From positions 1,541,001-1,605,000 of the forward strand of contig NC_010337.2 in assembly GCF_000019165.1 (NCBI RefSeq): a DNA stretch of 64,000 bases, written 5' to 3'. Below the pieces are notes generated by a model that was not told where the DNA came from, did not search any database, and saw only the letters and a list, made by a program, of their open reading frames with translations. Below are positions 5,493 to 60,050 of this stretch, piece after piece. The stretch is from Heliomicrobium modesticaldum Ice1. GTDB lineage: Bacteria; Bacillota; Desulfitobacteriia; Heliobacteriales; Heliobacteriaceae. Made by a program: the position numbers and the translations under genes. Every line of letters begins with the position of its first letter. Positions within the stretch are counted from its first letter, which is position 1.

Positions 5493-6308
5493 ATGAACGG
5501 AGCCTGGAAAAAGACCCTCGTCGCCACCAGCGTGGCGGGAGCACTCCTCTGCGGCGGTGTCATCGCTTATGCGGCCACCGATACGGCGGCGACTGGTGAC
5601 AACAGCAAACCCCCGTTTTTTCAAAAGTTTGGAAAGGACCGCCGGGGTGGCTTCAAAGCCCCTGATTTTGCCCGTGGCTTTGAAGGCGTCGCCGCCATCA
5701 TCGGCATCGACGAGGCTGCCTTGAAAACGGAACTGCAAAGCGGCAAAACGCTGGCAGAAATCGCGCAGACCAAAGGCATCGCTAGGGAAGACTTGATCGC
5801 TAAGATGGTCGCCGCCGCCCAGACCCGCCTGGACGAAGCCGTCGCCTGCGGCAGGCTCAGCGCTGAGGAGGCCGCTCAGAAGAAAGAAACAATGAAACAA
5901 AAGATCGAAGCCGTCGTCGACAAAAAACACACCGATAAGTTCGCCGAAAGAGCCGCTTGGAAGTTCGGCGACATGGTGAAAGACAAAGTCGGGTTCCGGG
6001 CTTTTGGCGGTTTTGCCGGTTCAAGTCACTTCCAAGTCGCTGCCGACCTGTTGCAGATGACCCGGGATGAACTGATGACCGAATTGAAAGCCGGCAAGTC
6101 TCTGGAAGAAGTCGCCCAGGCCAAAGGGGTCGCCAAGGAAACCCTGAAAGCCAAGTTGATCGAGTCGTCGCAAGCCGATATTGATAAGGCGGTATCCGAC
6201 GGCAGACTGACGGCGGAAAAAGCCGAGCAAGCCAAAACCAATCTAGAAAAACGGATCGATGACATGCTGGGCCGGAAAGGCTTCGGCGGTCGCCACGGGA
6301 TGAAATAA
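5493..6308 (+). CDS. Secreted protein with two tandem helical repeats
   Basis: This 271-residue protein has a Sec signal peptide (MNGAWKK, then a hydrophobic stretch ending AYAATD). The body holds two copies of an about 78-residue unit. Each copy has a short hydrophobic start (VAAIIGIDEAAL / VAADLLQMTRDEL), then ELQSGKTLAEIAQTKG / ELKAGKSLEEVAQAKG, then a long charged helix with CGRLSAEEAAQKK / DGRLTAEKAEQAK. The repeats are internal duplications of a domain seen in extracellular proteins of Firmicutes; I cannot name its function. It lies downstream of a two-component system and upstream of an RND efflux operon on the same strand, so it may belong to the same envelope-stress response. The start has a good SD (AAAGGAGAT). 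Confidence is high that it is a gene, low on role. Confidence 0.85.
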   Translation: MNGAWKKTLVATSVAGALLCGGVIAYAATDTAATGDNSKPPFFQKFGKDRRGGFKAPDFARGFEGVAAIIGIDEAALKTELQSGKTLAEIAQTKGIAREDLIAKMVAAAQTRLDEAVACGRLSAEEAAQKKETMKQKIEAVVDKKHTDKFAERAAWKFGDMVKDKVGFRAFGGFAGSSHFQVAADLLQMTRDELMTELKAGKSLEEVAQAKGVAKETLKAKLIESSQADIDKAVSDGRLTAEKAEQAKTNLEKRIDDMLGRKGFGGRHGMK

Positions 6309-6352
6309 CGCCCCCTCTACCGCTTCAAGCGAGGGGAAATCAAAGGAACGAT

Positions 6353-6400
6353 GCGGCCACAAGGCGGGACTCCCGTCTGCGGTCGCTTTTTCCCTTTTTT
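6353..6400 (+). terminator. Rho-independent terminator
   Basis: An imperfect GC-rich hairpin (arms beginning GCGGCCACAAGGCGGG and ending CCCGTCTGCGGTCGC) is followed by two T tracts. It should end the transcript of the secreted repeat protein ahead of the efflux operon. A smaller CCCTC/GAGGG hairpin lies just upstream. Confidence 0.6.
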
Positions 6401-6468
6401 TGATTTTCGTTCCTCTTAGCGGTCATCCCCAAGGGGGCGAGACAAGAATATTGCTTGAGGTGAATCAC

Positions 6469-7719
6469 TTGCAGACAGGAAAGGTTGTTCTCGCCTTATG
6501 TTTGACCACGATGGTTTTGACAACGGCCTGCGGGAAGACGGACGCGCCAGCGACCTCGGCTGTCGGCGCGGTCACTTCGGTCAAAACGGTCCCGGTGAAG
6601 CGGGCCACCTTGACCAGCACCGTGACATTGAGCGGAAAAATCGAGCCGATTGAATCTGTCAATGTGGTCCCCAAGTCCTCAGGGAAGGCGGCCGGCGTCT
6701 ACGGTGATGTGGGCCAGCGGGTGAGCGCCGGGACAAGGCTGATCCAACTGGAAAACAACGATATCCTGGCCAAACTCGATGCGGCCAAAGCGGCCTTGGC
6801 CGCCAGCGAAGCCAACCTGGAGCGCGCCAAGGCGCAGTTGGAAAAGACCCAGATCCAGTTGGATGAAGCCAAGCGCAACCTGGAACGGCAGAAGATGCTC
6901 TTTGAAGCGGGTGCCCTTTCCCAGGCCCTGTACGACGCCGCCCAGACGAACTATGATTCGATCAAAAAAGACTATGACATGAACGCCGCTTCTGTGGCGT
7001 CTGCCCAGGCCAGTGTGGAACAAAACAAGGCGGCCATTCGACAAAACGAAGTGGAGCTGGAGAACAGCTGTGTCGTTTCTCCGATCTCCGGTATCATCGC
7101 CAGCAAGAACGTCAACGTCGGTGAATCCCTTTCAGCCAGTACGGCGCCTTTTGTCGTCATCAATATGCAGACCGTTCAGATCAACGCCGGTGTGAGCGAA
7201 GGCGACATCAATCAATTTAAGCCGGGCTTGGATGTAGATGTGCGGGTTCCCGCAGCATCGCCCAAACCGTTCAAGGGAAAGGTGACCAAGATCAGCCCCT
7301 CCGCCGACGCCAAGACCAAAACATACCCAGTCTGGGTGTCTGTCGACAACACTGATGACCTGCTGAAGGCAGGCATGTATGCGGAGATCCTTGTGACGAC
7401 GCAGCGACTGGAGAATGCCCTCACTGTCCCCTCTGACGCAGTTGTGGAGCGGAACGGGCAGAAGGTTGTGTACATACTTGACGGGGACAAGGCTGTCGAG
7501 CGCAAGGTCTCTGTCGGCAAGGTAGACGAGGGGATCACCCAGGTGACCGAAGGGGTGGCCGAGGGCGAAAAAGTGATCACCACAGGTCTGCAGGCACTGC
7601 GCGACGGCATGGCTGTCCGTGAGGAACAGGCCAAGCCGCAGGAAAGAGCAGCTGGAGGTTCCCAGAAGGCGCCGCGTCAAGGGCAATCGCAGGATGCGCC
7701 TTACATTACGAACCGGTAG
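6469..7719 (+). CDS. RND/MFP periplasmic-adaptor-type lipoprotein (pump 1)
   Basis: This is a HlyD/AcrA-family membrane fusion protein of about 416 aa that should work with the RND transporter encoded 12 bases downstream. The TTG start at 6469 is chosen because GAGGTGA lies 5 bases upstream; the first residues then form a lipoprotein signal (hydrophobic stretch, lipobox VLTTAC). Domains follow the family order: beta-barrel/lipoyl half (GKIEPIESVNVVPKSSGK), a long alpha-helical hairpin (about residues 95-190, rich in Ala, Glu and Lys, e.g. ANLERAKAQLEKTQIQLDEA), second lipoyl half (SPISGIIASKNVNVGE), beta-barrel and membrane-proximal domain. In a monoderm cell it would be anchored to the outer face of the membrane. 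The substrate is unknown. Confidence 0.93.
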   Translation: MQTGKVVLALCLTTMVLTTACGKTDAPATSAVGAVTSVKTVPVKRATLTSTVTLSGKIEPIESVNVVPKSSGKAAGVYGDVGQRVSAGTRLIQLENNDILAKLDAAKAALAASEANLERAKAQLEKTQIQLDEAKRNLERQKMLFEAGALSQALYDAAQTNYDSIKKDYDMNAASVASAQASVEQNKAAIRQNEVELENSCVVSPISGIIASKNVNVGESLSASTAPFVVINMQTVQINAGVSEGDINQFKPGLDVDVRVPAASPKPFKGKVTKISPSADAKTKTYPVWVSVDNTDDLLKAGMYAEILVTTQRLENALTVPSDAVVERNGQKVVYILDGDKAVERKVSVGKVDEGITQVTEGVAEGEKVITTGLQALRDGMAVREEQAKPQERAAGGSQKAPRQGQSQDAPYITNR

Positions 7720-7731
7720 GGTGGCGAAGGC

Positions 7732-10700
7732 ATGAATCTAACGGACTTTTCTATAAAACGGCCTGCCGGCATCAGCATGATCGTCCTGTTTTTTGTGGTG
7801 CTGGGGCTGTACAGCTTCAACCGCATCGGCGTGGAACTGTTGCCGGCCATGAACACGCCCTTCGTGACGGTGCAGGTGAGCTATCCCGGTGCCGCCGCCG
7901 AAGACGTGGAAAAGCAGGTCATCGAACCGTTGGAGGAGGCCGTCTCCTCTGTCTCCAAGTTAAAGAAACTGACCGCCATGGCCAACGCGGGCTCCGGTTT
8001 TGTCATCCTCGAGTTCGACCTGTCGGCCGATCCCGATCAGGCTGTCCTGGACGTGACCAAGAAGGTGGACGCCGTCAAAGGCCGCCTTCCCGATGAGGCG
8101 AACGACCCGGTCGTCATCAAGCGGGACATCAATGCCCAGGCGATCATGACCTTGAGCGTCAGCAGCGATGGCCTGTCCAAACTGGAAACCTATAAATTGG
8201 CCGACGAGATGATTCAGGAGCGCCTCAAGCGCGTCCAGGGCGTCTCCGAGATCGAGGTTTACGGTGGGCGGCAGAAGGAGATCGCCGTCGAGGTTGACCC
8301 CAAGAAGTTGACCGTCTTCAACGTCTCTTTAAATTCCATCGTCAATAAGATTAAGTCAGAAAACGCCAACAAACCGGTAGGTAAGCTCTATCGCCAGCGT
8401 GATTACGACCTGCGGCTGTTGGGCGAGTACCAGAGTGTCAAAGAGATCGAGAACCTGGCCATCCCCAGCGGCGACGGCGCCGCCGTCCCTTTGAAAAACG
8501 TTGCCACCGTCAAAGAACAAATCAAAGAAGTCCGCAACATGACCCGCCTCAACGGCGAGGAATCGGTGGGCATCGAGATCTTCAAGCAGAGCGACAGCAG
8601 CGTCGTCGATGTGGGCAAAGGCCTCAACGCCGAGATCGAGAAACTGCGTAAGGAACTTCCCGGTGTCACCATCTACGTGGCCAACGACGCTTCCGACTAT
8701 GTTCAGAAGGCTTTGAACAATACGCAGATGAGCATCTTCGAAGGGATCGTGACGACGGCCTTCGCCCTGTTCTTCTTCCTGAAGGAATGGCGATCCATGG
8801 TGACAGTGCTGATCGCCATTCCCACATCGCTCATCTCCGTTATCTTCGTCATGTACCTCTTCGACTTTACGTTCAACATGATGTCCCTCATGGGTATGGC
8901 GCTCTGTATCGGTATTCTGGTTGACGATTCGATCGTCGTCTTGGAGAACATCCACCGGCACCTGACCATGGGCAAAGATGCCAGGACGGCGGCGCGGGAT
9001 GGACGGGGCGAGATCGGCATGGCCGCCATCGCTATCACCCTTTGCGATGTCGTCGTCTTCCTGCCCATCGCCTTCATGGAGGGGATGGTGGGGCAGTTTT
9101 TCCGCCAGTTCGGTCTGACCATCGTCTTCGCCACCCTCTTTTCCCTGTTCGTCTCCTTCACGGTCACGCCGATGCTTTCTTCGCGGCTCTATAAAAAGGG
9201 ATTCGAAGAAAAGCACCACCCCATCTGGGAGCGCGTCGACCGGTTTGGGGGACGGGTCAGGAACCTCTATGCGGTGCTCCTCCATGGCGCCCTGGCCCAT
9301 CCCCAAAAAGTCCTCGCCGGCGGCTTGGCGCTTTTTATCGCCTCCATAAGCCTAATCTACCCCTTTCAGGTCGTCGGCGCCGAGTTCCTGCCGAAGACCG
9401 ATGAAGGCAGCTTCAGCGTCACCGTCGAAATGCCCATCGGCACGCCCTTTGCGTTGACCGACAAAGAGACCCTTAAGGTCGAGCAGTTCTGCCAAACGAT
9501 CCCGGAAGTTGATAAGGTCCAATCGCGCATCAGCGGCAACCAGGGAAGCGTTCAGGTGAAGCTTCGGAACAAGAAAGACCGAAAGCGGACCGTCTGGGAG
9601 ATCGCCGATGACGTGCGCAACTGGAGCAAGCAGAACTTCCCCCCTGGCGTCGTCCGGGTGAGTGAAGCGACGGCCTCCATCGCCGGTCTACCCGGTGGCG
9701 GCGGCCCGCGCGGCGCCGGCGGCGGCAACGTGCAGATCGAGATCCTCGGAGCGGATCAGGACAAACTGCTGTCCATCTCCGAGGAGGTCATGGACATCCT
9801 GCGCAACACACCGGGGTCGAAGGATGTCAACAGCAGTTGGCGCCTCGGCCAGCCGGAGATCCAGACCGTCATCAACCGGGAGCAGGCCAAGTACTATGGC
9901 GCTTCTCTGAACGATATTGCCACAGCCTTGCAGACTGGCGTCAGCGGCAGCACCGCCGGCGTCTACCGCAAAGACGGCGATGAGCTCGAAATCAATGTCC
10001 GCTTTAAAGACGGTGACAAGTTAAGCAACCAGGATCTGAAGAGCATCCCTGTCACCGTCGGCGGCCAGAACATCGCCATCAGCAACCTGGTCGAGTTTAA
10101 AGAGGGTACAGGACCGCGATCCATCCGCCGCGTCGACAAGCAGCGGGCCATCACCATCTCCTGCAACTTAAACGACCGTCCGCTGCAGGAGTTCATCAGC
10201 GAGGTGCAGCAGAAGATCAAGGCCCGCCACTTCGACCCCCTCTACTCGATCAAGATGGCCGGCCAGGCCCAGAACATGAACGACACCTTCAGCCAGATGC
10301 TGAGCGCCTTAGGGCTGTCGCTGATCCTGGTCTACATGGTGCTCGTCGTGCTCTATGAATCCTTCCTGACGCCCTTTATCCGCATGTTCTCGCTGCCCCT
10401 CGGCTTTATCGGCGCTGTCGTGGCGCTGGCCTTGACGAAGAACAGCCTCAACCTCTTTTCCATGATGGGCATCATCATGATGGACGGCCTGGTGGCCAAA
10501 AACGGCACGCTGCTCCTTGACTACGCCTTGACCCTCATGGATCGGGGATTCAAGCCGCGCGAAGCGATCATCGAGGCTGGTAAGACGCGCTTGCGGCCGA
10601 TCGTCATGACGACGATGACCATGGTCTTCGGCATGCTGCCCACGGCCTTAGCCATCGCCGAAGGCGCTGAAAACCGTGTCGGCATGGCCTGGGTGCTCAT

Positions 10701-10851
10701 CGGCGGCCTGCTCAGTTCCACCTTCTTCACCCTGATCATCATCCCGATCATCTTCATCGCCATGCACCGTTGGAAAGACAAGTTCTCCACCGGCGGATGG
10801 ACAGGGTTGTTCAAGAAGCGGGGCGGGGAGAAGGCGGTAGGAGGGGCCTGA
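7732..10851 (+). CDS. RND-family efflux transporter, AcrB/HAE1 type (pump 1)
   Basis: This 1039-residue proton-driven exporter has the standard RND layout: N-terminal TM helix (MNLTDFSIKRPAGISMIVLF), first large extracytoplasmic loop, TM2-6, second loop and TM8-12. The conserved acidic pair of TM4 appears in GILVDDSIVVLENIHRH, and the TM10-11 region shows FSMMGIIMMDGLVAKNGTLLLDY. A Gly-rich insertion (GGGGPRGAGGG) near residue 655 lies in the second loop. It overlaps no neighbour and follows its adaptor by 12 bases, so the two are one operon. Substrates could be drugs, lipids or surfactants as for other Firmicutes RND proteins; the sequence alone does not decide. The paralogue at 45.9-49.1 kb is close in architecture. 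Confidence 0.95.
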   Translation: MNLTDFSIKRPAGISMIVLFFVVLGLYSFNRIGVELLPAMNTPFVTVQVSYPGAAAEDVEKQVIEPLEEAVSSVSKLKKLTAMANAGSGFVILEFDLSADPDQAVLDVTKKVDAVKGRLPDEANDPVVIKRDINAQAIMTLSVSSDGLSKLETYKLADEMIQERLKRVQGVSEIEVYGGRQKEIAVEVDPKKLTVFNVSLNSIVNKIKSENANKPVGKLYRQRDYDLRLLGEYQSVKEIENLAIPSGDGAAVPLKNVATVKEQIKEVRNMTRLNGEESVGIEIFKQSDSSVVDVGKGLNAEIEKLRKELPGVTIYVANDASDYVQKALNNTQMSIFEGIVTTAFALFFFLKEWRSMVTVLIAIPTSLISVIFVMYLFDFTFNMMSLMGMALCIGILVDDSIVVLENIHRHLTMGKDARTAARDGRGEIGMAAIAITLCDVVVFLPIAFMEGMVGQFFRQFGLTIVFATLFSLFVSFTVTPMLSSRLYKKGFEEKHHPIWERVDRFGGRVRNLYAVLLHGALAHPQKVLAGGLALFIASISLIYPFQVVGAEFLPKTDEGSFSVTVEMPIGTPFALTDKETLKVEQFCQTIPEVDKVQSRISGNQGSVQVKLRNKKDRKRTVWEIADDVRNWSKQNFPPGVVRVSEATASIAGLPGGGGPRGAGGGNVQIEILGADQDKLLSISEEVMDILRNTPGSKDVNSSWRLGQPEIQTVINREQAKYYGASLNDIATALQTGVSGSTAGVYRKDGDELEINVRFKDGDKLSNQDLKSIPVTVGGQNIAISNLVEFKEGTGPRSIRRVDKQRAITISCNLNDRPLQEFISEVQQKIKARHFDPLYSIKMAGQAQNMNDTFSQMLSALGLSLILVYMVLVVLYESFLTPFIRMFSLPLGFIGAVVALALTKNSLNLFSMMGIIMMDGLVAKNGTLLLDYALTLMDRGFKPREAIIEAGKTRLRPIVMTTMTMVFGMLPTALAIAEGAENRVGMAWVLIGGLLSSTFFTLIIIPIIFIAMHRWKDKFSTGGWTGLFKKRGGEKAVGGA

Positions 10852-10925
10852 GCAAGGGTGCCACTGGAACGACAGATCGAATATCCCGGCATCGTCAATG
10901 GAGATTGTACGCCAGTTGTTGCGGC

Positions 10926-11555
10926 TTAAGCCGAAATCCGGCACACCTCATCACGAATCAGTTCCAAGCGGTTCGATTCGACAAAGTCGAGGGCCAATTG
11001 GTTCGCCCGGTCAAAGCGCTCCTTCAGCCGCAAGGACGGCACCACATCGCCGTAGATGCACCACTCGCAGACATGTTGCTTGGGTAGCGGAGACAGGCCG
11101 AGAAAGCCGAGCACATCCTTGAGCGGGTAGCCGAGGGCGAGGCCGATCTCGTGCGGGAGTTGGCCGCCCTTGCACCATCGCTCTCTCAAGTGGAAAAGAA
11201 ACGGCTGTACATCCAGGGGCCAGGGGAGTCGCTTGTTCCGGTATTGACGCAGACGGCCGAAGCGCTTCAACGTTGCCCGGACTTGCGGCTCACGGTAAAA
11301 GAGCACCCAAGCGCACTTCTCGCAGCGTTTGAGCAGGAACATTTCCACACCCCAATCGCGCGCCAGTCGCCGGGCTTCCTTCAGCGTCGAGGCGATGTTT
11401 TTTCCGAAGAAGGGCTCTTGAAAGCGGATAAACTCGCCGGCCTTTCCTGCAAAGAGGACTCTGGAGAGGTTGACAAAGAGCCATTTCTCAAATCGCGCCT
11501 GGCGGATGTCTTTCTCCGCCAGGCTGTCTTTCCATAGACCAAAAAACGATCCCAT
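10926..11555 (-). CDS. DUF3793 family protein, probably iron-regulated
   Basis: The 209-aa product matches the DUF3793 pattern: FLFHLRERW followed by LPHEIGLALGYPLKDVLGF and WCIYGDV near the C-terminus. No membrane segment or signal is seen, so it is cytosolic. The start is the ATG at 11555, seven bases after GGAGGGA; an in-frame TTG at 11561 sits too close to that site. DUF3793 genes often occur with flavodoxin or ferrous-iron genes in Clostridia (family knowledge), and here a perfect Fur-type palindrome sits in the spacer of the promoter upstream. Function is unknown; expression under iron limitation is inferred. Confidence 0.85.
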   Translation of the reverse strand: MGSFFGLWKDSLAEKDIRQARFEKWLFVNLSRVLFAGKAGEFIRFQEPFFGKNIASTLKEARRLARDWGVEMFLLKRCEKCAWVLFYREPQVRATLKRFGRLRQYRNKRLPWPLDVQPFLFHLRERWCKGGQLPHEIGLALGYPLKDVLGFLGLSPLPKQHVCEWCIYGDVVPSLRLKERFDRANQLALDFVESNRLELIRDEVCRISA

Positions 11556-11611
11556 GAGCAATCCCTCCCAAGAACGGCATGATCGCGATCCAAAAAAGTG
11601 CTGGTACCGCT

Positions 11612-11641
11612 ATTCTACATGAAAATGATTTTCAGTTTCAA
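11612..11641 (-). promoter_or_regulatory. Promoter with perfect 7-1-7 Fur box for the DUF3793 gene
   Basis: Reading the minus strand, a -35 TTGAAA (11641-11636) is followed by an 18-base spacer and -10 TAGAAT (11617-11612). The spacer contains TGAAAAT-G-ATTTTCA at 11620-11634, an exact 7-1-7 palindrome of the Fur class. A repressor bound there would cover the promoter. Confidence 0.75.
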
Positions 11642-11780
11642 GTATTTTTTTCTAGCCGCCATCGTGATTTCGGTCGAAACCGCTTAGACATGATGTGGAG
11701 GTCGGAATTGTGGAAATAGGCGCATTCATTTATAATCGATAGTGAGGAGAGTTTGACGAACCGCAACATATGGACAATGG

Positions 11781-11809
11781 AAAAACCCCCTCGCCGCGAG
11801 GGGGTTTTT
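11781..11809. terminator. Bidirectional terminator-like hairpin
   Basis: AAAAACCCCCTCG and CGAGGGGGTTTTT form a perfect stem with a tiny loop and T-runs on both strands. No convincing gene ends just upstream; a short TTG-started frame (from 11753 behind GAGGAG) runs into it and may be only a leader. Confidence 0.7.
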
Positions 11810-11843
11810 GAGCAAATATCTGTGATCAGAGGAGTCGGTCCTT

Positions 11844-12524
11844 ATGTCAGAGGTGTTGCTGCCGGCCTTGGCGGCTGCGATGATGACGGTGCTTGGGGCG
11901 GTGCCTTTTTTCTTTATCACCGTCACACACCGGTTGCGGGACATCCTGCTGGGATTGGCGGCGGGCATGATGGTGACGGCGGCTTTCGCCTTGTTGCAGC
12001 AGACGCCGGACTTCTGGTTGGTAGCCCCCGGGATGGTCATCGGCGCCGGACTCCTCTTTGTCCTGCTCCGTTTCTTGCCGGAAGGCGGACGGTTGGCTTG
12101 GTTGACCTTTGCGGCCATCGCCCTGCACAACGTTCCCGAGGGTCTCGTCGTCGGTGTCGGTTATGCCGATGGGGACAAACTGGGCCTCTTGATGGCGCTG
12201 ACCATCGGCTTGCAGAACGTGCCGGAAGGGTTGGTCATCGTCGCTCCGCTGCTGGAACAGGGCGTCAACCGCTGGAAAGCCCTCTCCTTCGTCTTCGCCG
12301 CCGCCATGGTGGAGCCTTTGTTCGCCCTCTCCGGCTATGTCCTGGTGGAGCAGGTGCAGGGCCTTTTGCCCGTCGCCCTCGGTTTTGCTGCCGGCGCTAT
12401 GCTCTACGTCACCTTTCGGGAGTTGATCCCCGATACCCATGGCCATGGTTTTGAGGAACAGGCGACTTTCGCCTTTCTGACCGGTGTGATCGTCATGATG
12501 GGGTTGGCGACAGCGCTGGGATAA
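11844..12524 (+). CDS. ZIP-family divalent metal transporter
   Basis: This 226-residue membrane protein has about eight hydrophobic segments and the two ZIP signatures that bind metal in helices 4 and 5: IALHNVPEGLVVG (near residue 94) and GLQNVPEGLVIV (near 126). It resembles the zinc/iron uptake proteins called ZupT-like or GufA-like in bacteria. The ATG start follows GAGGAG by 8 bases. It stands alone, behind a terminator-like hairpin, with nhaA convergent downstream. Import of zinc, iron or manganese into the cytosol is the likely role; the metal cannot be read from sequence. Confidence 0.9.
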   Translation: MSEVLLPALAAAMMTVLGAVPFFFITVTHRLRDILLGLAAGMMVTAAFALLQQTPDFWLVAPGMVIGAGLLFVLLRFLPEGGRLAWLTFAAIALHNVPEGLVVGVGYADGDKLGLLMALTIGLQNVPEGLVIVAPLLEQGVNRWKALSFVFAAAMVEPLFALSGYVLVEQVQGLLPVALGFAAGAMLYVTFRELIPDTHGHGFEEQATFAFLTGVIVMMGLATALG

Positions 12525-53482: not shown

Positions 53483-54496
53483 TCAGCCGTAACATGTTGC
53501 CATAATCGGCAACGTGAAATAGAAGGTGCTGCCCTTGCCGGGCTGACTCTCTACACCGATCCTACCGCCATGGCCGATCACGATCTGCCTGGCGATGGCC
53601 AGGCCAAGGCCGGCGCCTTCTGTCGAGCGTGAACGCTCTGCCCGGTAAAAGCGGTCAAACACATGAGGGAGGGCCGCTTCGTCGATACCGGGACCGTCGT
53701 CGACAACGCTGACTGTGAAGACTGCCGTCGGAGGCGCCTGCCCGCCTGGAAGCGCTTTCCCGTCCGATCGTTCACAACAAAAACACAGGCGAATGGTTCC
53801 GCCTGGGGGAGTGTATTTCAGCGCATTGGCGATGAGGTTGTTCATCACCTGTTCGATGCGCATCATGTCCACAGAGAGTACAAACTCGTCCGCTTCAGGA
53901 AAAGGCAGATCTAGGGTGGATTCAAAGCGATATCCCCGCCGCCGGATATCGGCGCCGTATTTGCGAATCAGATCGCTAGCGAACAGATGGGGTTTGACGG
54001 ATTTTAGATCAAAGCTTGGCTGTCCGAACTCCAGCTTGGACAGATCGAAGAGGTCCTCTACCAGTTGGTTGACCAACAGAACCTTTTCGTAGATCATGGT
54101 CAGATTTTCCTGATCAGGCGCCACGATCCCGTCCAGCATGGCTCGGAGATACCCCTGGATCGCCGTCATCGGGGTGCCCAGTTCGTGGGAGATATCGGAG
54201 ACGAGTTGGCGGCGCGACTGCTCCAATCGGTGCAGGGTCGCATTGGCCTCATTGATCTCCGACTCCCGTTCCTTGAGCAGTCGCCCCTGAATGTCGCTGA
54301 TCTTGAAAATCCTTGCTGATACTTTCAACAGTTTTTCGTATTCTACAGCGAGGTCCGCAAAAATCTGCCGTGCTTCGGGATCGTGGAGGCGGTGACTGTT
54401 CGCCTTCGCCGTTTCCAGAACGAGGCTTTCCCGTCCGAATAATGTATTGCCGTCTCCTTTTTTCAGCAACAGAGGCAACTCCTTTCCGTGGCGCAT
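53483..54496 (-). CDS. Soluble histidine kinase with Sia-type stalk motif
   Basis: This 337-aa kinase has no TM segment. After about 50 residues comes a helical stalk (EYEKLLKVSARIFKISDIQG, then LLKEREsEI, residues 52-82). Next are HisKA (LVSDISHELGTPMTAIQGYL, His104) and HATPase (NNLIANALKYTPPGG; DDGPGIDEAALPHVFDRFYR; GAGLGLAIARQI). Thr replaces the usual Arg after HELG. The stalk is nearly the same as that of the GGDEF/HD-GYP protein encoded at 58.4 kb, suggesting a shared controller, perhaps the SiaC-like protein of the divergent operon. It is the second gene after its response regulator (23-base gap). Confidence 0.92.
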   Translation of the reverse strand: MRHGKELPLLLKKGDGNTLFGRESLVLETAKANSHRLHDPEARQIFADLAVEYEKLLKVSARIFKISDIQGRLLKERESEINEANATLHRLEQSRRQLVSDISHELGTPMTAIQGYLRAMLDGIVAPDQENLTMIYEKVLLVNQLVEDLFDLSKLEFGQPSFDLKSVKPHLFASDLIRKYGADIRRRGYRFESTLDLPFPEADEFVLSVDMMRIEQVMNNLIANALKYTPPGGTIRLCFCCERSDGKALPGGQAPPTAVFTVSVVDDGPGIDEAALPHVFDRFYRAERSRSTEGAGLGLAIARQIVIGHGGRIGVESQPGKGSTFYFTLPIMATCYG

Positions 54497-54519
54497 CCAG
54501 CCTCGGCCTTTCTTCGCGA

Positions 54520-55227
54520 TTACAGGTTGAACTTGTACCCGAAGCCCCGGATGTTCTGAATGCGCTCAGGCGCTGAAGGATCGGTTTTTATCTTTTTGCG
54601 GATGTTGCTGATATGGGTCATGACGGTCCGGTAATCGCCGATATCTTTGTATCCCCAGATCCTGGTATACAGCTCCTGGGCGGTAAAGACCTGGTTGGGG
54701 TGCTGGGCGAGGAAGAACAGCAGTTGCAATTCCTTGGCTGCCAGAGAAACGGGTTGGCCGCCGACGGCAACGCGGTAATTGGCCAGGTCGATCTCCAGAT
54801 CATCGAATACCAAGATACGAGCTGGCGCCGGTTCTTCGGTAGGAGCGGTCCGCCGGAAGATGGGCGCTCTGCGCAGCTTGGCCTCCACCCGCGCCATGAG
54901 CACCTTTGGGTCGAAAGGTTTCGTAATATAGTCATCGCCGCCCAGCTTCAGCGCCTGGATGATGTTGTCCGCTTCCTTCATGCAACTCATGAAGAGGATC
55001 GGCACGTTGGAGCAGCTGCGGATCTCCTGGCAGATCTGGTAGCCATCCATATCAGGCAGAAGGATATCCAAGAGAATCAGGTCAGGCTGTTCCGATTCAA
55101 AGAGACGCAGCGCCTCCGCACCTCTTTGTGCCACGGCCGTGCGGTAGCCCTTTTTTTCGAGATAAAGCACCAACAATTGCTGGATTTTTGTGTCGTCTTC
55201 AACGATCAGGACCTTTTTCCCCTCCAT
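54520..55227 (-). CDS. OmpR-family response regulator, partner of the soluble kinase
   Basis: A 235-aa regulator with a receiver domain (VLIVEDDTKIQQLL; LILLDILLPDMDGYQ with the phospho-Asp; DDYITKPFDPKVLMARV) and a winged helix (VSLAAKELQLLFFLAQHPNQ; TVMTHISNIRKKIKTDP; IQNIRGFGYKFNL). The start has a perfect AGGAGGTGA. It is transcribed together with the soluble kinase and divergent from the Sia-type operon, separated by 242 bases in which no obvious palindrome stands out; that gap contains both promoters. Confidence 0.94.
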   Translation of the reverse strand: MEGKKVLIVEDDTKIQQLLVLYLEKKGYRTAVAQRGAEALRLFESEQPDLILLDILLPDMDGYQICQEIRSCSNVPILFMSCMKEADNIIQALKLGGDDYITKPFDPKVLMARVEAKLRRAPIFRRTAPTEEPAPARILVFDDLEIDLANYRVAVGGQPVSLAAKELQLLFFLAQHPNQVFTAQELYTRIWGYKDIGDYRTVMTHISNIRKKIKTDPSAPERIQNIRGFGYKFNL

Positions 55228-55469
55228 CCTATCACCTCCTACGCATCCACCTTTTCTCCCACACTTCTACATCTCTCGCTCGCATCCTTTTCTTACGACG
55301 AGGGCTTGCAAAAAATTCATAGGGCCTGGCACTTTAGATAGGCTTAAAGAACTTCGCTTTTAAATTTAAACAATAGCATGGCTGCTTATTTTATAATGAA
55401 CTTGTAATGATCTGTTATATGTAAAAGATGATCAGATAAGACGAGATCTGCGCCAAAGGAGGCAATGAT

Positions 55470-56018
55470 ATGAATGGCAACCGCATGATTCAACTGCAGC
55501 AGGCTCTTTCCAGTGAAAGCGTGTTGATCAGCTTTTCCGGGCGCTTTACCCAGGGGATCATTGAGGAACTGGGAGAAGCGGTGAAAAACTACCTGGAAAC
55601 CGAAAACCGGCCCAAGAACGACATCTTCAATATCTTCGCTATTTTTATCGAACAGACCCAGAACATCAAAAATTACATCACCGTCAAAGAGGGCACCCCT
55701 TCTTACGACCGTGTGGCCAACTCAGGGATCGTGATCATCGGCAAGCGAAACGGAGGCAACTACGTCAGTTCAGGCAACTTGATCGAAAATATGGACGCAC
55801 CGACGCTTGCGCGACGCATCGATCGGCTGATGGCTCTCGACAAGGCGGAACTGAAAAAACTGTATAAGGAAGAGATGAAAAAGGACGTGCCCCCCGGCAG
55901 CCTGGGCGCCGGTCTCGGTCTCATCGATATCGCTCGCAAGGCGAGCGCCCCCTTAGAATACTCGATCATCAGCATCGACGAGCGGTTTTCTTTCTTCACA
56001 CTGACCGCCATCATATAG
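55470..56018 (+). CDS. SiaB-family protein kinase
   Basis: This 182-residue protein resembles SiaB/DUF6272, a GHKL-fold Ser/Thr kinase that phosphorylates the small protein SiaC. Visible kinase-like features are an N-box helix (IFAIFIEQTQNIKNYI, residues 55-70) and a Gly-rich lid (GSLGAGLGLIDIARKAS, residues 143-159). A strong AAAGGAGG site precedes the ATG. The SiaC-like substrate gene follows after 14 bases. In the known Sia pathway SiaB kinase opposes SiaA phosphatase; the same logic is inferred here. Confidence 0.85.
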   Translation: MNGNRMIQLQQALSSESVLISFSGRFTQGIIEELGEAVKNYLETENRPKNDIFNIFAIFIEQTQNIKNYITVKEGTPSYDRVANSGIVIIGKRNGGNYVSSGNLIENMDAPTLARRIDRLMALDKAELKKLYKEEMKKDVPPGSLGAGLGLIDIARKASAPLEYSIISIDERFSFFTLTAII

Positions 56019-56032
56019 GGAGTGGTTTTGCC

Positions 56033-56428
56033 ATGGATAAGCTCTACATCACCGGTGCTAAAGGAACACCGGAGGTCGACTTTGACCCCTTCCAACACAC
56101 GTTAAAGCTGTCCGGGCAATCGTACCCGGAAAATGCCTTTAAGTTTTATGAGCCAATCCTGCGGTGGGTGGACGCCTATCTCGAACAATTGACGGCAGAA
56201 GCCAATGTAGTCATCGACTTCAGCTTCCCTTATATCAACACGAGCAGCTCTAAGTGCGTCATGATGCTGCTGGAAAAATTGGATGGGGCCTTTCAAAAGG
56301 GCAAGCAATTGTCTCTGAACTGGTACTATGACGAGGATAACGACAGCGAACTGGAATGCGCCGAGGAGTTTAAGGAAGATGTAACCATGCCCTTCCGGCT
56401 CATCCCCCGGGAGCGGACGGAACGGTAA
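56033..56428 (+). CDS. SiaC-family regulatory phosphoprotein (DUF1987)
   Basis: A 131-aa partner-switch protein. It has the SiaC pattern: YITGAKGTPEVDFDPFQHTL, LSGQSYPENAFKFYEPILRW, and the phospho-site motif FSFPYINTSSSKCVMMLLEK with Thr70 as the likely phosphorylated residue (equivalent to the Thr phosphorylated in Pseudomonas SiaC). The unphosphorylated form is expected to bind and activate a diguanylate cyclase. It is encoded between the kinase and phosphatase genes, a compact arrangement typical of the pathway. Confidence 0.87.
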   Translation: MDKLYITGAKGTPEVDFDPFQHTLKLSGQSYPENAFKFYEPILRWVDAYLEQLTAEANVVIDFSFPYINTSSSKCVMMLLEKLDGAFQKGKQLSLNWYYDEDNDSELECAEEFKEDVTMPFRLIPRERTER

Positions 56429-56512
56429 AAAAGGCGAAATAGCCGGGTTACATCGGCAAATTCGAGGGAGAAATCGGCGCGCCCGGCTGCCGGTATAAGG
56501 GGGGCGGAGGCG

Positions 56513-58444
56513 ATGGGGCTGCAGTTGGAGAAAGGACTCCTCGTAGAAGAGGGGCGGCGGAACGTCCTCTACGACCGGGGCGCCATTAAGGTCATTTTTC
56601 TGGCGACGGCCATGATCACCTTGGCCGTCTTGCTGACCGGCGCCATCGGTTACACCATCACGAAAATGGGCGTCGTCGACAAGCTGAAATCAAAGGATCT
56701 CCACTACATCGCCCGATCGATGGCCGCCCGCATCGATGGCAGGCTGGAGCGCGCCACAGAAACTGCACGCTTGTTCGCCGGCGATCCCACAGTCGTCCAG
56801 TGGGTGGCTGGCGGAGAACGAGATGAAAGGCTTGGTGAAAAAGCACGCAAAAGACTGATCGACATCGCCAGCGATCATGGCTACGTGAACACCTTCATCG
56901 TCAGCGCGCAGTCGGGAAACTACTGGGGCGAGGAGGGGAACATCCTCGAGACGATGGATCCCCAAGACCCCTATGACCGGTGGTTTTTCGATTTCCTGTC
57001 TTCAAAGGCACTGCTCCAAGTCCATCTCGATTACAACAAAACCCGCCAGAATACGTACGTATTCGTCAACGCCCGTATCGGCAGCGCGGAAGAGAGCTAC
57101 GGTGTAGCCGGTGTCGGCCTCAGCCTGGAGGATCTGGCGGGGGAATTCCAGCAGTACCGTTACAGCGCCGGCAGTCGCCTGTGGCTGGCCGATGAGAAAG
57201 GCGCCATCCACCTGTCAGACAACCTAGAGGCCAACGGAAAAAACCTATCCGATTTTCTGCCTGAAACGATCTGGGATGCGGTCCTGCGAGGAGAGCCGGA
57301 CAAGGCGGGAACGACCGTCATGGAATACCTCGACAGCGCCGGAAATCAGATGGATCTCATCAGCCAGCCGATCGGCGCCACCGGCTGGAGACTGGTTTTT
57401 CAGGTTCCCCGCGCCGAGAGCCTGGCGGTGCTGAACTCTATACTGGTCAACATGACCTTGACCAGCCTCTTCTCGGTGGCGCTGATCTGCATCGTCTTCT
57501 ATGTCGTATCCAGGCGCATCGCCGATCCCTACCGGCGCGCGCTGGAACTCAACGAGGAACTGGAACGGAGCGTGGCAGAGCGGACTCGGGAACTCTCCGA
57601 AAAAAATCGGAATATCATGGACGGCATCGACTACGCCAAGCGGCTGCAGGAGGCGATCCTGCCGGAGCCTGCCGAGTTGAACGATTTGTTCGCCGCTCAT
57701 TTTTTGTACTGGCGGCCTCGGGACATCGTCGGCGGAGATTTTTACTGGGTCCGTCGTTACGGTGAAGAGGAGTATATCGTCGCTGTGGGGGATTGTACCG
57801 GTCACGGTGTTCCTGGCGCCTTGATGACCATGGCGGTCAACACGATGTTGAACCATATCGCCGACGAAACCATGCAGGACGACCCTGCCGGGATCCTACT
57901 GCGCCTGCACCAGGCCGTCAGAGAGACGATACAGAAAAAAGCCGACGGCGAAACCCGTCTTGACGGACTCGATATCGGTCTTTGCAGCGTGACGGGCAGG
58001 CGGGTGATCTTCGCCGGGGCCGGCATGGATCTCTATGTGACCGGGGGTGAGGCGGCGTCGAACGTTACAGTGTTGAAGGGGGCGAGAAAAAGTGTTGGAC
58101 ACCCCCGCTTCGGCGCCGGTGACGTAGAAAACCAGGTGGTCGAGGTCGGAGAAGGCCAGGTTTTTTACCTGACGACGGATGGGTATCTCGATCAAAATGG
58201 CGGAACCAGCGACTACCCCTTTGGGAAAAGGCGCTTCAAAAACCTGCTCGCCAGCCTTTCCGACGTCGCCCTCCCGGCGCAACAGGAGATCATCGCGCAG
58301 AGCCTCGCCGATTATATGGGGGGAGAAGCGCAGCGAGACGACATTACGGTGCTCGGTTTTTCACTCAAGAATGATAAGGTTGCCTATGGAGACGGGGGTG
58401 AGGCAGCAAATGGCGAAAGGGGAACCGGGCGGTCTTTTATTTGA
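56513..58444 (+). CDS. SiaA-like membrane PP2C phosphatase with extracellular sensor
   Basis: A 643-aa protein: cytosolic N-terminus, TM1 (about 25-50), an extracytoplasmic Cache-like sensor (about 55-300), TM2 (about 305-330), a short coiled linker (about 335-370, with LNEELERSVAERTRELSEKN) and a SpoIIE/PP2C phosphatase domain (about 385-625). The phosphatase shows RPRDIVGGDFYW, VAVGDCTGHGVPGALMTM, LDGLDIGLC and QRDDITVLGF, so metal-binding Asp residues are present. It should dephosphorylate the SiaC-like protein in response to an extracellular signal. The gene start follows GGGGGCGGAGG. Its 3' end overlaps the next gene by 35 bases. Confidence 0.9.
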   Translation: MGLQLEKGLLVEEGRRNVLYDRGAIKVIFLATAMITLAVLLTGAIGYTITKMGVVDKLKSKDLHYIARSMAARIDGRLERATETARLFAGDPTVVQWVAGGERDERLGEKARKRLIDIASDHGYVNTFIVSAQSGNYWGEEGNILETMDPQDPYDRWFFDFLSSKALLQVHLDYNKTRQNTYVFVNARIGSAEESYGVAGVGLSLEDLAGEFQQYRYSAGSRLWLADEKGAIHLSDNLEANGKNLSDFLPETIWDAVLRGEPDKAGTTVMEYLDSAGNQMDLISQPIGATGWRLVFQVPRAESLAVLNSILVNMTLTSLFSVALICIVFYVVSRRIADPYRRALELNEELERSVAERTRELSEKNRNIMDGIDYAKRLQEAILPEPAELNDLFAAHFLYWRPRDIVGGDFYWVRRYGEEEYIVAVGDCTGHGVPGALMTMAVNTMLNHIADETMQDDPAGILLRLHQAVRETIQKKADGETRLDGLDIGLCSVTGRRVIFAGAGMDLYVTGGEAASNVTVLKGARKSVGHPRFGAGDVENQVVEVGEGQVFYLTTDGYLDQNGGTSDYPFGKRRFKNLLASLSDVALPAQQEIIAQSLADYMGGEAQRDDITVLGFSLKNDKVAYGDGGEAANGERGTGRSFI

Positions 58445-60050
58445 ACAGGAGATGCAGGTGCTGGAGGGCGCGCTGAGCGAACTCGACGATCCCTGTCATG
58501 CCGACAACCCATTGCTTTTCAAATACGAGGCGCTCGCCCGGAGTTATGAAAAGCTGCTGAAGGAAACACAAAAAGTCTTCCTGATCAGCGATATCCAGGG
58601 GACCATTCTCAAAGAGCGAGAAGAGAAAATCCGGACGCTGCTCGATAACTCTAATCAGGGCTTCCTCACCTTCGGTCGCGATCTGCTCGTTCAAAAGGAG
58701 TATAGCGTCGAATGTACCCGCCTTTTCGACGGTAAAAAGATCGCCCGCGCCGGCATCATCGATCTGCTGGCGTCCCCCGGTACGCAAGAAGGGGCGCGGC
58801 TTAGCGCTATCTTTCAGGCGATTTTTGCAGCCGAAGATGAAGAAAGCCGGAACCGGCTGATCCAGCAGGTTCCCACCGGGATGATGATCGGCAGGCGGCA
58901 TATTCAAGTGCAGGTAAAATCGCTGTTCAAACCGTCAGGGCGACGGGAGGAGGACGCGCTCCTCCTCATCCTGACTGATTTGACGGAGAAAAAGGAAGCC
59001 GACGCGTGGCTGTCTTTTCTAAACACCCATGATAAACTGACAGGGTTATACAACCGCAACTATGCCGAGAGCCTGCTCCCGGCGCTGATGGCCGATAAGG
59101 AGTTCCCCTTCAGCGTCATCGTGGCTGACTTAAACGGGCTGAAACTGACCAACGATGTCTTCGGCCATGAAACAGGTGACCGGCTGATCGCCAACGCCGC
59201 CGCGATCCTCTTTGACTGCTGTTGTGACAGGGGCATGGCGGTGCGCTGGGGTGGAGACGAGTTCCTGCTTTTGCTGCCGCGGACCGATGCGGTGGCCTGC
59301 CAGGAACTCTGCGAGCAGATTCGGGACGGTTGCCGACAGGCGGCGCCTTCGCCTATTGAATTGAGTATGGCCATCGGGGGCGCCACGGCGGAGGCGCCGG
59401 TGGCTTTCGGCGACCTTTTCCGTGTGGCCGAGAACCGTATGTACAGCAACAAGCTGTCGGAGAGCCGCCGCGTCCATCAGAACATCATACTGGGGCTGGA
59501 ATTCCTGCAGAGAGAGAACTGCTTTGAGATCGAAGGGCATGTAGAGCGGCTGCGGGAGTTGGCCGCCGATTTTGCCGCTCGGCTCGGCATCTCCGCTGAC
59601 TCGACGGAGATGCGCAACCTGATGCTGTTGGCGTCACTCCATGACATCGGCAAGGTCGCCCTGCCCAAGGGGATCCTCTGCAAAGCGGGACCGTTGACGC
59701 CGGAAGAGTGGGAAGTCGTCCGCCAGCACAGCGAGATCGGCTACCGGATGGCCCAGTCCATCGATGAGCCGGTAGTGGCCGACGCGATCCTGGCCATGCA
59801 TGAGCGATGGGACGGCACCGGTTATCCCTTTGGGCGCAAAGGGGAAGAGATACCCTGGCTGGCCCGCATCCTGGCGATCGTAGACGTGTACGATGTGCTC
59901 ACCCACGATCGGGTATACGCCAAGGCGATGAGCCCGCAGGATGCCCTCGCGGAGTTGGAGAGCGGGCGGGGCAGCCAGTTTGATCCGGCGCTGGTTTTGC
60001 TCTTTATCGAACAGGCGGCCCGGCAGATCGCGCCAGCGGCGGCTCCCTGA
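58410..60050 (+). CDS. SiaD-like GGDEF plus HD-GYP c-di-GMP enzyme
   Basis: A 546-aa cytosolic protein that could both make and break c-di-GMP. The N-terminal stalk (SYEKLLKETQKVFLISDIQG, then ILKEREEKI, residues 46-74) matches that of the soluble kinase upstream. A PAS-like part follows, then a GGDEF domain with intact RWGGDEFLLLL near residue 280, and an HD-GYP domain with HDIGKVALPKGIL near 410 and MHERWDGTGYPFG near 466. In the last motif Met replaces the first His of the usual HHE. The ATG at 58410 follows GGGGGTGAGG and overlaps the phosphatase gene. Unlike Pseudomonas SiaD, it has an added hydrolase domain. Confidence 0.9.
   Translation: MAKGEPGGLLFEQEMQVLEGALSELDDPCHADNPLLFKYEALARSYEKLLKETQKVFLISDIQGTILKEREEKIRTLLDNSNQGFLTFGRDLLVQKEYSVECTRLFDGKKIARAGIIDLLASPGTQEGARLSAIFQAIFAAEDEESRNRLIQQVPTGMMIGRRHIQVQVKSLFKPSGRREEDALLLILTDLTEKKEADAWLSFLNTHDKLTGLYNRNYAESLLPALMADKEFPFSVIVADLNGLKLTNDVFGHETGDRLIANAAAILFDCCCDRGMAVRWGGDEFLLLLPRTDAVACQELCEQIRDGCRQAAPSPIELSMAIGGATAEAPVAFGDLFRVAENRMYSNKLSESRRVHQNIILGLEFLQRENCFEIEGHVERLRELAADFAARLGISADSTEMRNLMLLASLHDIGKVALPKGILCKAGPLTPEEWEVVRQHSEIGYRMAQSIDEPVVADAILAMHERWDGTGYPFGRKGEEIPWLARILAIVDVYDVLTHDRVYAKAMSPQDALAELESGRGSQFDPALVLLFIEQAARQIAPAAAP

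Follow-up and report, generated by a model that had tools for sequence, protein, structure and literature searches.

A predicted SiaC-binding stalk common to a soluble histidine kinase and a GGDEF/HD-GYP protein at a Sia-type locus of Heliomicrobium modesticaldum Ice1

Gene organization of the Sia-type locus

The window analyzed here is a stretch of 64,000 nucleotides from the Heliomicrobium modesticaldum Ice1 contig NC_010337.2, and all coordinates of the locus refer to it. Its plus strand carries genes for a SiaB-family kinase (55470-56018; PF19788, 4.8e-42; NF038262, SiaB_fam_kinase, 204 bits versus a cut-off of 85), the phosphoprotein SiaC (56033-56428; PF09345, E=1.7e-42), a SiaA-like membrane PP2C phosphatase (56513-58444; SpoIIE, 1.1e-19, above cut-off) and a GGDEF/HD-GYP protein as SiaD-like output (~58410-60050; GGDEF, 5.6e-26; HD_5, 2.4e-34). 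The start of the last gene is most likely 58410, which overlaps the 3' end of siaA, rather than the mechanical open reading frame start at 58179. The SiaA-type phosphatase of this operon has a Cache-like sensor region (dCache_1 in Pfam, 4.4e-11, slightly under its cut-off). Divergently, on the minus strand, lie an OmpR/PhoB-type response regulator (54520-55227; Response_reg, 3.5e-31; Trans_reg_C, 5.4e-25) and a soluble histidine kinase (HK) (53483-54496; HisKA, 1e-14; HATPase_c, 5.6e-28). The regulator gene is found immediately upstream of the HK in three species, and the regulator is presumed to be the partner of this kinase. Pfam and NCBIfam thus bear out the initial sequence-only reading, which had assigned 55470-60050 to SiaB, SiaC, SiaA-like and GGDEF/HD-GYP proteins, and Pfam does so for its call of a divergent soluble HK. 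The arrangement of the genus is fixed, with the regulator and HK genes divergent to siaB-siaC-siaA-GGDEF in 3/3 species, and the H. modesticaldum genome (3,075,407 bases, one contig) encodes a single SiaC.

The divergent intergenic region (55228-55469) has a mean column identity of 79% in an alignment of the three species. A tandem repeat, CTTTAGAT/CTTAAAGA, with its units 11 bp apart, is kept in all three (55332-55350), and a conserved TATAAT follows about 40 bp downstream (55392-55397). The repeat looks like an OmpR/PhoB-type site through which the regulator could act on the sia operon and on its own gene.

The sequence motifs are in line with a Sia-type switch. SiaC has the Y-x-N-T-S-S loop with its Thr: YINTSSS aligns with YLNTSSI of Pseudomonas aeruginosa SiaC, and Thr70 is the counterpart of Thr68 there. 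The catalytic motifs appear intact in the HK (His104; N box NNLIANALKYT; G1 box DDGPGID; G2 box GAGLGLAI) as well as in the c-di-GMP enzyme (RWGGDEF, HDIGK, HERWDGTGYP). The SiaB-type kinase adjoins siaC and exceeds the NCBIfam cut-off of the SiaB family. All four Sia proteins fall below the NCBIfam cut-offs of the Pseudomonas SiaA/B/C/D equivalogs, the GGDEF protein scoring 93.2 bits against the SiaD equivalog NF038266 (cut-off 290). Judged by profiles and gene layout, the locus is a Sia module with a SiaD-like output and no orthologue of SiaABCD; the GGDEF protein is SiaD-like by layout and no SiaD orthologue.

Like SiaABCD of P. aeruginosa, the locus combines a SiaA phosphatase, a SiaB kinase, a SiaC with the Y-x-N-T-S-S loop and a GGDEF output whose N-terminal helical stalk bears the SiaC motif (PMC8457831, PMC7647112, PMC12834913). 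It differs in a second stalk protein, the HK with its own response regulator, and in a GGDEF protein whose architecture adds a PAS-like part and an HD-GYP domain to that of SiaD. Orthologues of this GGDEF protein adjoin siaC in the class. The PAS-like region (LLDNSxQGFLTFGxDLxVxxEYSxEC; 58641-59009, residues 78-200) lies between stalk and GGDEF domain, is conserved, has no Pfam match and is absent from P. aeruginosa SiaD.

A stalk common to the HK and the GGDEF protein

In BLASTP, residues 11-81 of the HK matched the N-terminal ~75 residues of the GGDEF protein with 44% identity (E=1e-9), and the 39-residue core of this stalk is 54% identical. The core covers residues 46-84 of the HK (54245-54361, minus strand; YEKLLK...FKISDIQG..LKERE; own-genome profile match 3.8e-26) and residues 39-77 of the GGDEF protein (58524-58640, plus strand; 5.5e-26). 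Both stalks are identical within the LL, ISD and LKERE stretches, and the I-S-D starts at residue 66 of the HK and residue 59 of the GGDEF protein. Thus, the alignment substantiates the earlier observation of nearly the same stalk at a similar distance from the N-terminus in both proteins.

Run against the whole genome, the stalk core profile scored 93 and 92.5 bits at these two genes and 11.5 bits at the third-best place, a 16-aa frame. This argues against a general coiled-coil resemblance. The catalytic core of the HK is resembled at 22 places in the genome, and among these the stalk is present only on this kinase. Searches with the HK N-terminus returned nothing real in the PDB (phmmer; best hit cyclin-C, E=1.6) and one marginal match among plasmids.

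Across 17 Sia-type GGDEF/HD-GYP proteins from several Bacillota families, the five residues Tyr46, Ile59, Ser60, Asp61 and Gln63 never vary, and each of them is also present in the HK. With identities of 56-58% and 53%, the HK stalk shows no special closeness to the GGDEF protein next door as compared to others, and it retains the Lys of FKISDIQ, which the neighbour has lost.

Both stalks resemble the SiaC-contact motif of SiaD

In P. aeruginosa, the stalk of the cyclase SiaD is bound by unphosphorylated SiaC, and the cyclase is activated. The crystal structure of this complex shows SiaC contacting SiaD residues R74, K77, V78, R80, I81, S82, D83, R84, Y85, Q86, M88, R90 and D91, and SiaD carries a second copy of the motif 32 residues earlier (PMC8457831). 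We aligned both stalks to the SiaD sequence of 7e6g, obtained via a close relative. At the 13 contact positions (74-91), the HK has V, R, I, K, I, S, D, I, Q, G, L, K and E, and the GGDEF protein has E, K, V, L, I, S, D, I, Q, G, I, K and E. Both retain the I-S-D, the basic residues at 77 and 90 and the acidic residue at 91, and the GGDEF protein thereby carries a predicted SiaC-contact motif in its N-terminal stalk. At positions 77, 78, 80-83, 90 and 91, the HK reads R,I,K,I,S,D,K,E, and the two sites of SiaD read K/R,V/I,R,I,S,D,R,D/E.

Two features set the stalks of the locus apart from SiaD. The position of Gln86, which hydrogen-bonds Thr68 of SiaC (PMC8457831), is occupied by Gly in both stalks, with a Gln one position earlier. 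Moreover, a second SiaC site was not recognizable in either stalk, each having one ISD motif as compared to two in SiaD.

The HK stalk runs into the catalytic core and is conserved

A monomer model of the HK, built from a six-sequence alignment, predicted a helix from residue 19 to 36 followed by an unbroken helix from 40 to 121 that spans the stalk and DHp helix 1 (pLDDT about 70-82 in helix 40-121). The stalk of the GGDEF protein is also predicted to be a long helix. In the HK, Ser67 lies 37 residues before His104, and the stalk continues into DHp helix 1 with no intervening sensor domain. The kinase shares the DHp and CA core of WalK/PhoR-type kinases (WalK, HK853), but it has no membrane sensor, HAMP or PAS domain and instead a SiaC-type stalk as its N-terminus.

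Compared with its counterpart in relative G077, the HK is 90% identical in the stalk, 92% in DHp, 71% in the CA domain and 62% in the first 45 residues. The corresponding pN/pS was 0.13 for the stalk and 0.46 for the N-terminus. For the closer species G078, which has few changes, the values were 0.19 and 0.15 and gave no contrast.

The stalk is essentially confined to genomes with SiaC

Among 83 genomes of the class, a profile built from the HK and the GGDEF protein of the locus matched 17, which are exactly the 17 with SiaC, and none of the 66 others (Fisher p 5e-18, which is indicative only, as co-occurrence p-values ignore shared ancestry). Across 399 genomes of the phylum, all nine with a SiaC above cut-off had a stalk match within ~2.5 kb of siaC; five other matches were weak and partial (12-24 of 36 positions), a division into full and partial that was decided after the results table was known. 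We attribute the weak matches in SiaC-free Bacillota (E 5e-4 to 9e-3), mostly frames of 28-58 aa, to chance. No SiaC was found in the five genomes behind unrelated loci, and a search of contigs with the whole HK recovered nothing but kinases of the ordinary sort, such as a stalk-less HAMP kinase from Paenibacillus mendelii.

The pattern extends to the Pseudomonadota. SiaC was present in 66 and the stalk in 53 of 399 genomes, and 52 of the 53 stalk-positive genomes were also SiaC-positive; the sole SiaC-free genome had a marginal match (E=8.8e-4, 19 positions). Since stalks close to siaC had served to train the Pseudomonadota profile, the matches in such positions are partly by construction. 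Outside the training set, 22 unlinked stalks were found, all in 17 SiaC-positive genomes, as compared to at most one among the 333 SiaC-free genomes; some of the unlinked stalks sit in fragmented assemblies, where the real distance to siaC may differ. A stalk widespread in kinases and cyclases away from SiaC would have spoken against the sequence-only reading; instead, it is essentially confined to SiaC-carrying genomes (17 of 17 stalk-positive genomes in the class; 52 of 53 in Pseudomonadota). On these genome counts, we rejected an explanation as a general signalling helix. Most stalk genomes have one stalk protein, yet the motif is kept.

Stalk kinases and other stalk enzymes in Pseudomonadota

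We surveyed the neighbourhoods of 60 SiaC genes of Pseudomonadota with an iterated stalk profile and found 35 stalk proteins in 34 loci. The search for the stalk beside siaC elsewhere, which the first reading had proposed, was successful: Pfam-confirmed stalk HKs immediately adjoin siaC at loci L133, L145 and L177. At L131, a hybrid stalk kinase with receiver domains (Pfam) lies ~1 kb from siaC, and the unlinked hybrid stalk kinases of L237, L238 and L255 all belong to SiaC-positive genomes. As stalk HKs adjoin siaC in unrelated bacteria, the tie between SiaC and kinases is independent of the H. modesticaldum locus.

Altogether, 77 stalk proteins of Pseudomonadota were classed by local domain profiles, ten of them checked with Pfam: 30 proteins with GAF and HD-GYP domains, 17 GGDEF proteins, 13 class III nucleotidyl cyclases, seven PP2C phosphatases, three HKs, four hybrid kinases, one GAF protein truncated at the end of its contig and two unassigned proteins, one of which is the marginal SiaC-free exception. 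The PP2C-domain proteins with a SiaC-type stalk are encoded at L141 (14007-15038), L229, L230, L232, L233, L235 and L239. They may be SiaC-controlled phosphatases or may dock SiaC as a substrate via the stalk. The stalk proteins of the class III adenylate/guanylate cyclase type are found at L155, L157, L160, L167, L183, L227, L228, L231, L234, L241, L250, L252 and L253; their architecture suggests SiaC control of a second cyclic nucleotide.

The spacing between the stalk motif and the catalytic domains was compared within output families. A continuous coiled coil in a fixed register demands steps of seven. The motif Ser precedes the phosphoacceptor His by 23, 37 or 44 residues (2 mod 7) in nine of ten stalk HKs: 37 in the genus of the locus and three hybrid kinases, 23 at L131 and L177, and 44 at L133. 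The kinase of L145 departs from this heptad rule with a spacing of 53. Among GGDEF proteins, the Ser and the D-x-L-T are 21 or 28 residues apart in 13 of 15 (21 in SiaD), with outliers at 48 and 167. One cyclase subfamily has a spacing of 30 or 37. The stalk-to-catalytic spacing is thus mostly heptad within output families, which fits a rigid coiled coil.

A tree of kinase cores places the hybrid stalk kinases among ordinary hybrid kinases, apart from the HK of the locus. The best tree needs five changes, and its well-supported branches force at least two, several branches being long. Fusion of the stalk to kinases has therefore probably occurred repeatedly, although we are unsure of the exact number. 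Within its own family, the HK occurs only in three SiaC-positive genomes (3/3 versus 0/6); its closest relatives among the Sia-free members are 33-43% identical, align from about residue 65-87 and have no stalk. The link between HK and Sia in this family rests on one genus and may represent one event.

In ten Pseudomonadota genomes, the stalk proteins outnumber the SiaC copies. G480 and G515 have their second stalk protein on another long contig, hence tens to hundreds of kb from siaC. The combination of a single SiaC with two stalk proteins thus extends beyond one genus. By these comparisons, the HK branch of the locus is not unique and appears as one case of a wider stalk module.

The genome of G078, a species of the same genus as H. 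modesticaldum, holds an additional, differing SiaC locus, L054 (G078:C3:63000-78000), with divergent SiaA-SiaB-SiaC at 6115-12200. A PAS histidine kinase follows right after siaC and a triple-PAS kinase lies right before siaA; no GGDEF was seen at L054. Both flanking kinases are without the stalk, which eliminates L054 as a second HK branch.

A model with two outputs and its alternatives

We consider it likely that one SiaA/SiaB/SiaC switch drives two stalk outputs, the phosphorelay of the HK and the c-di-GMP enzyme. This two-output reading is supported by the comparative evidence, and the HK is best described as a putative new kind of output for a known switch. In our model, a membrane signal would activate SiaA, which would take the phosphate off Thr70 of SiaC, and SiaB would restore it. 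By analogy with SiaD, SiaC in its unphosphorylated form would clamp the dimeric stalk of the GGDEF/HD-GYP enzyme at the YxxLLK...ISD motif and, presumably, the stalk of the soluble HK as well. Considering that the HK stalk meets the DHp helix without a sensor domain, SiaC binding would fix the coiled-coil register and thereby the kinase/phosphatase balance toward the neighbouring OmpR-type regulator. Phosphorylation of Thr70 by SiaB would release SiaC from the stalk. A single switch would thus set transcription and c-di-GMP together. For the kinase branch, SiaC binding, its control by phosphorylation and the target genes of the regulator are inferred; SiaC may switch the kinase on or off, and the bifunctional GGDEF/HD-GYP enzyme may either make or degrade c-di-GMP in response.

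Kinases often contain coiled coils, and the neighbouring gene is a possible source of the stalk. The stalk might thus be a gene-fusion relic from a SiaD-like gene that serves the HK as a dimerization helix while SiaC regulates the GGDEF enzyme alone and the kinase responds to another input. The absence of Gln86 would agree with such an origin. We regard it as unlikely, since the contact core is kept genus-wide at a conservation like that of DHp, and the HK stalk, with its retained Lys, is no closer to the GGDEF neighbour than to other stalks. Moreover, stalk HKs adjoin siaC in other phyla, and the tree suggests more than one origin.

The same motif and the same switch protein would also allow the HK to bind SiaC as a competitor or sink, or to act as a feedback reader to the sia operon via its regulator, with no separate output. 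The conserved direct repeat in the divergent promoter region does suggest feedback by the regulator. However, the catalytic core of the HK is intact, a regulator of its own accompanies it, and at L133, L145 and L177 a stalk HK occupies the position of siaD by siaC, which fits a main output, so that we think a mere competitor or reader quite improbable. Mixed dimers of HK and GGDEF protein, with SiaC binding secondary, would fit two long predicted helices identical in LL, ISD and LKERE, but are very improbable: like catalytic domains would be left unpaired, although diguanylate cyclases and most HKs need pairing, single-stalk genomes predominate and keep the motif, and the stalk follows SiaC rather than a second stalk protein.

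Relation to described systems and implications

The absence of a described Sia system with an HK branch, as proposed at the outset, held in the open-access literature, which describes the P. aeruginosa system and otherwise offers general remarks, with no SiaC-HK branch among the accounts found. Partner switches in which a STAS-like protein regulates a diguanylate cyclase include HptB-HsbR-HsbA-HsbD of P. aeruginosa and BgrSTUWV-BgrR of Sinorhizobium; HsbA and BgrV have STAS domains and are related to SiaC in structure only, and the passage on these systems in the structure paper names no kinase with the docking stalk of the cyclase (PMC8457831). The same paper suggested that DUF1987 proteins may modulate adjacent proteins and left open why a separate binding protein serves (PMC8457831).

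Beyond the two-output model, we lean towards the view that the SiaC stalk is a portable input module, attached in SiaC-carrying bacteria, probably in several independent events, to unlike enzymes (HKs, hybrid kinases, GGDEF and HD-GYP proteins, class III nucleotidyl cyclases and PP2C phosphatases), with one soluble SiaC broadcasting one membrane signal to several outputs simultaneously. If true, a portable stalk would explain why a separate activator is used instead of a built-in sensor domain, the question raised by the structure paper (PMC8457831). The SiaC-type switch was previously known only for turning on one enzyme; here it stands beside two stalk-bearing enzymes. A stalk shared by kinase and cyclase and confined to SiaC genomes suggests that a detachable activator can drive several outputs, and the motif offers a sequence-based prediction of SiaC targets in any genome. 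One defined interface would thereby connect serine/threonine partner switching with two-component phosphorelays as well as with cyclic nucleotide signalling.
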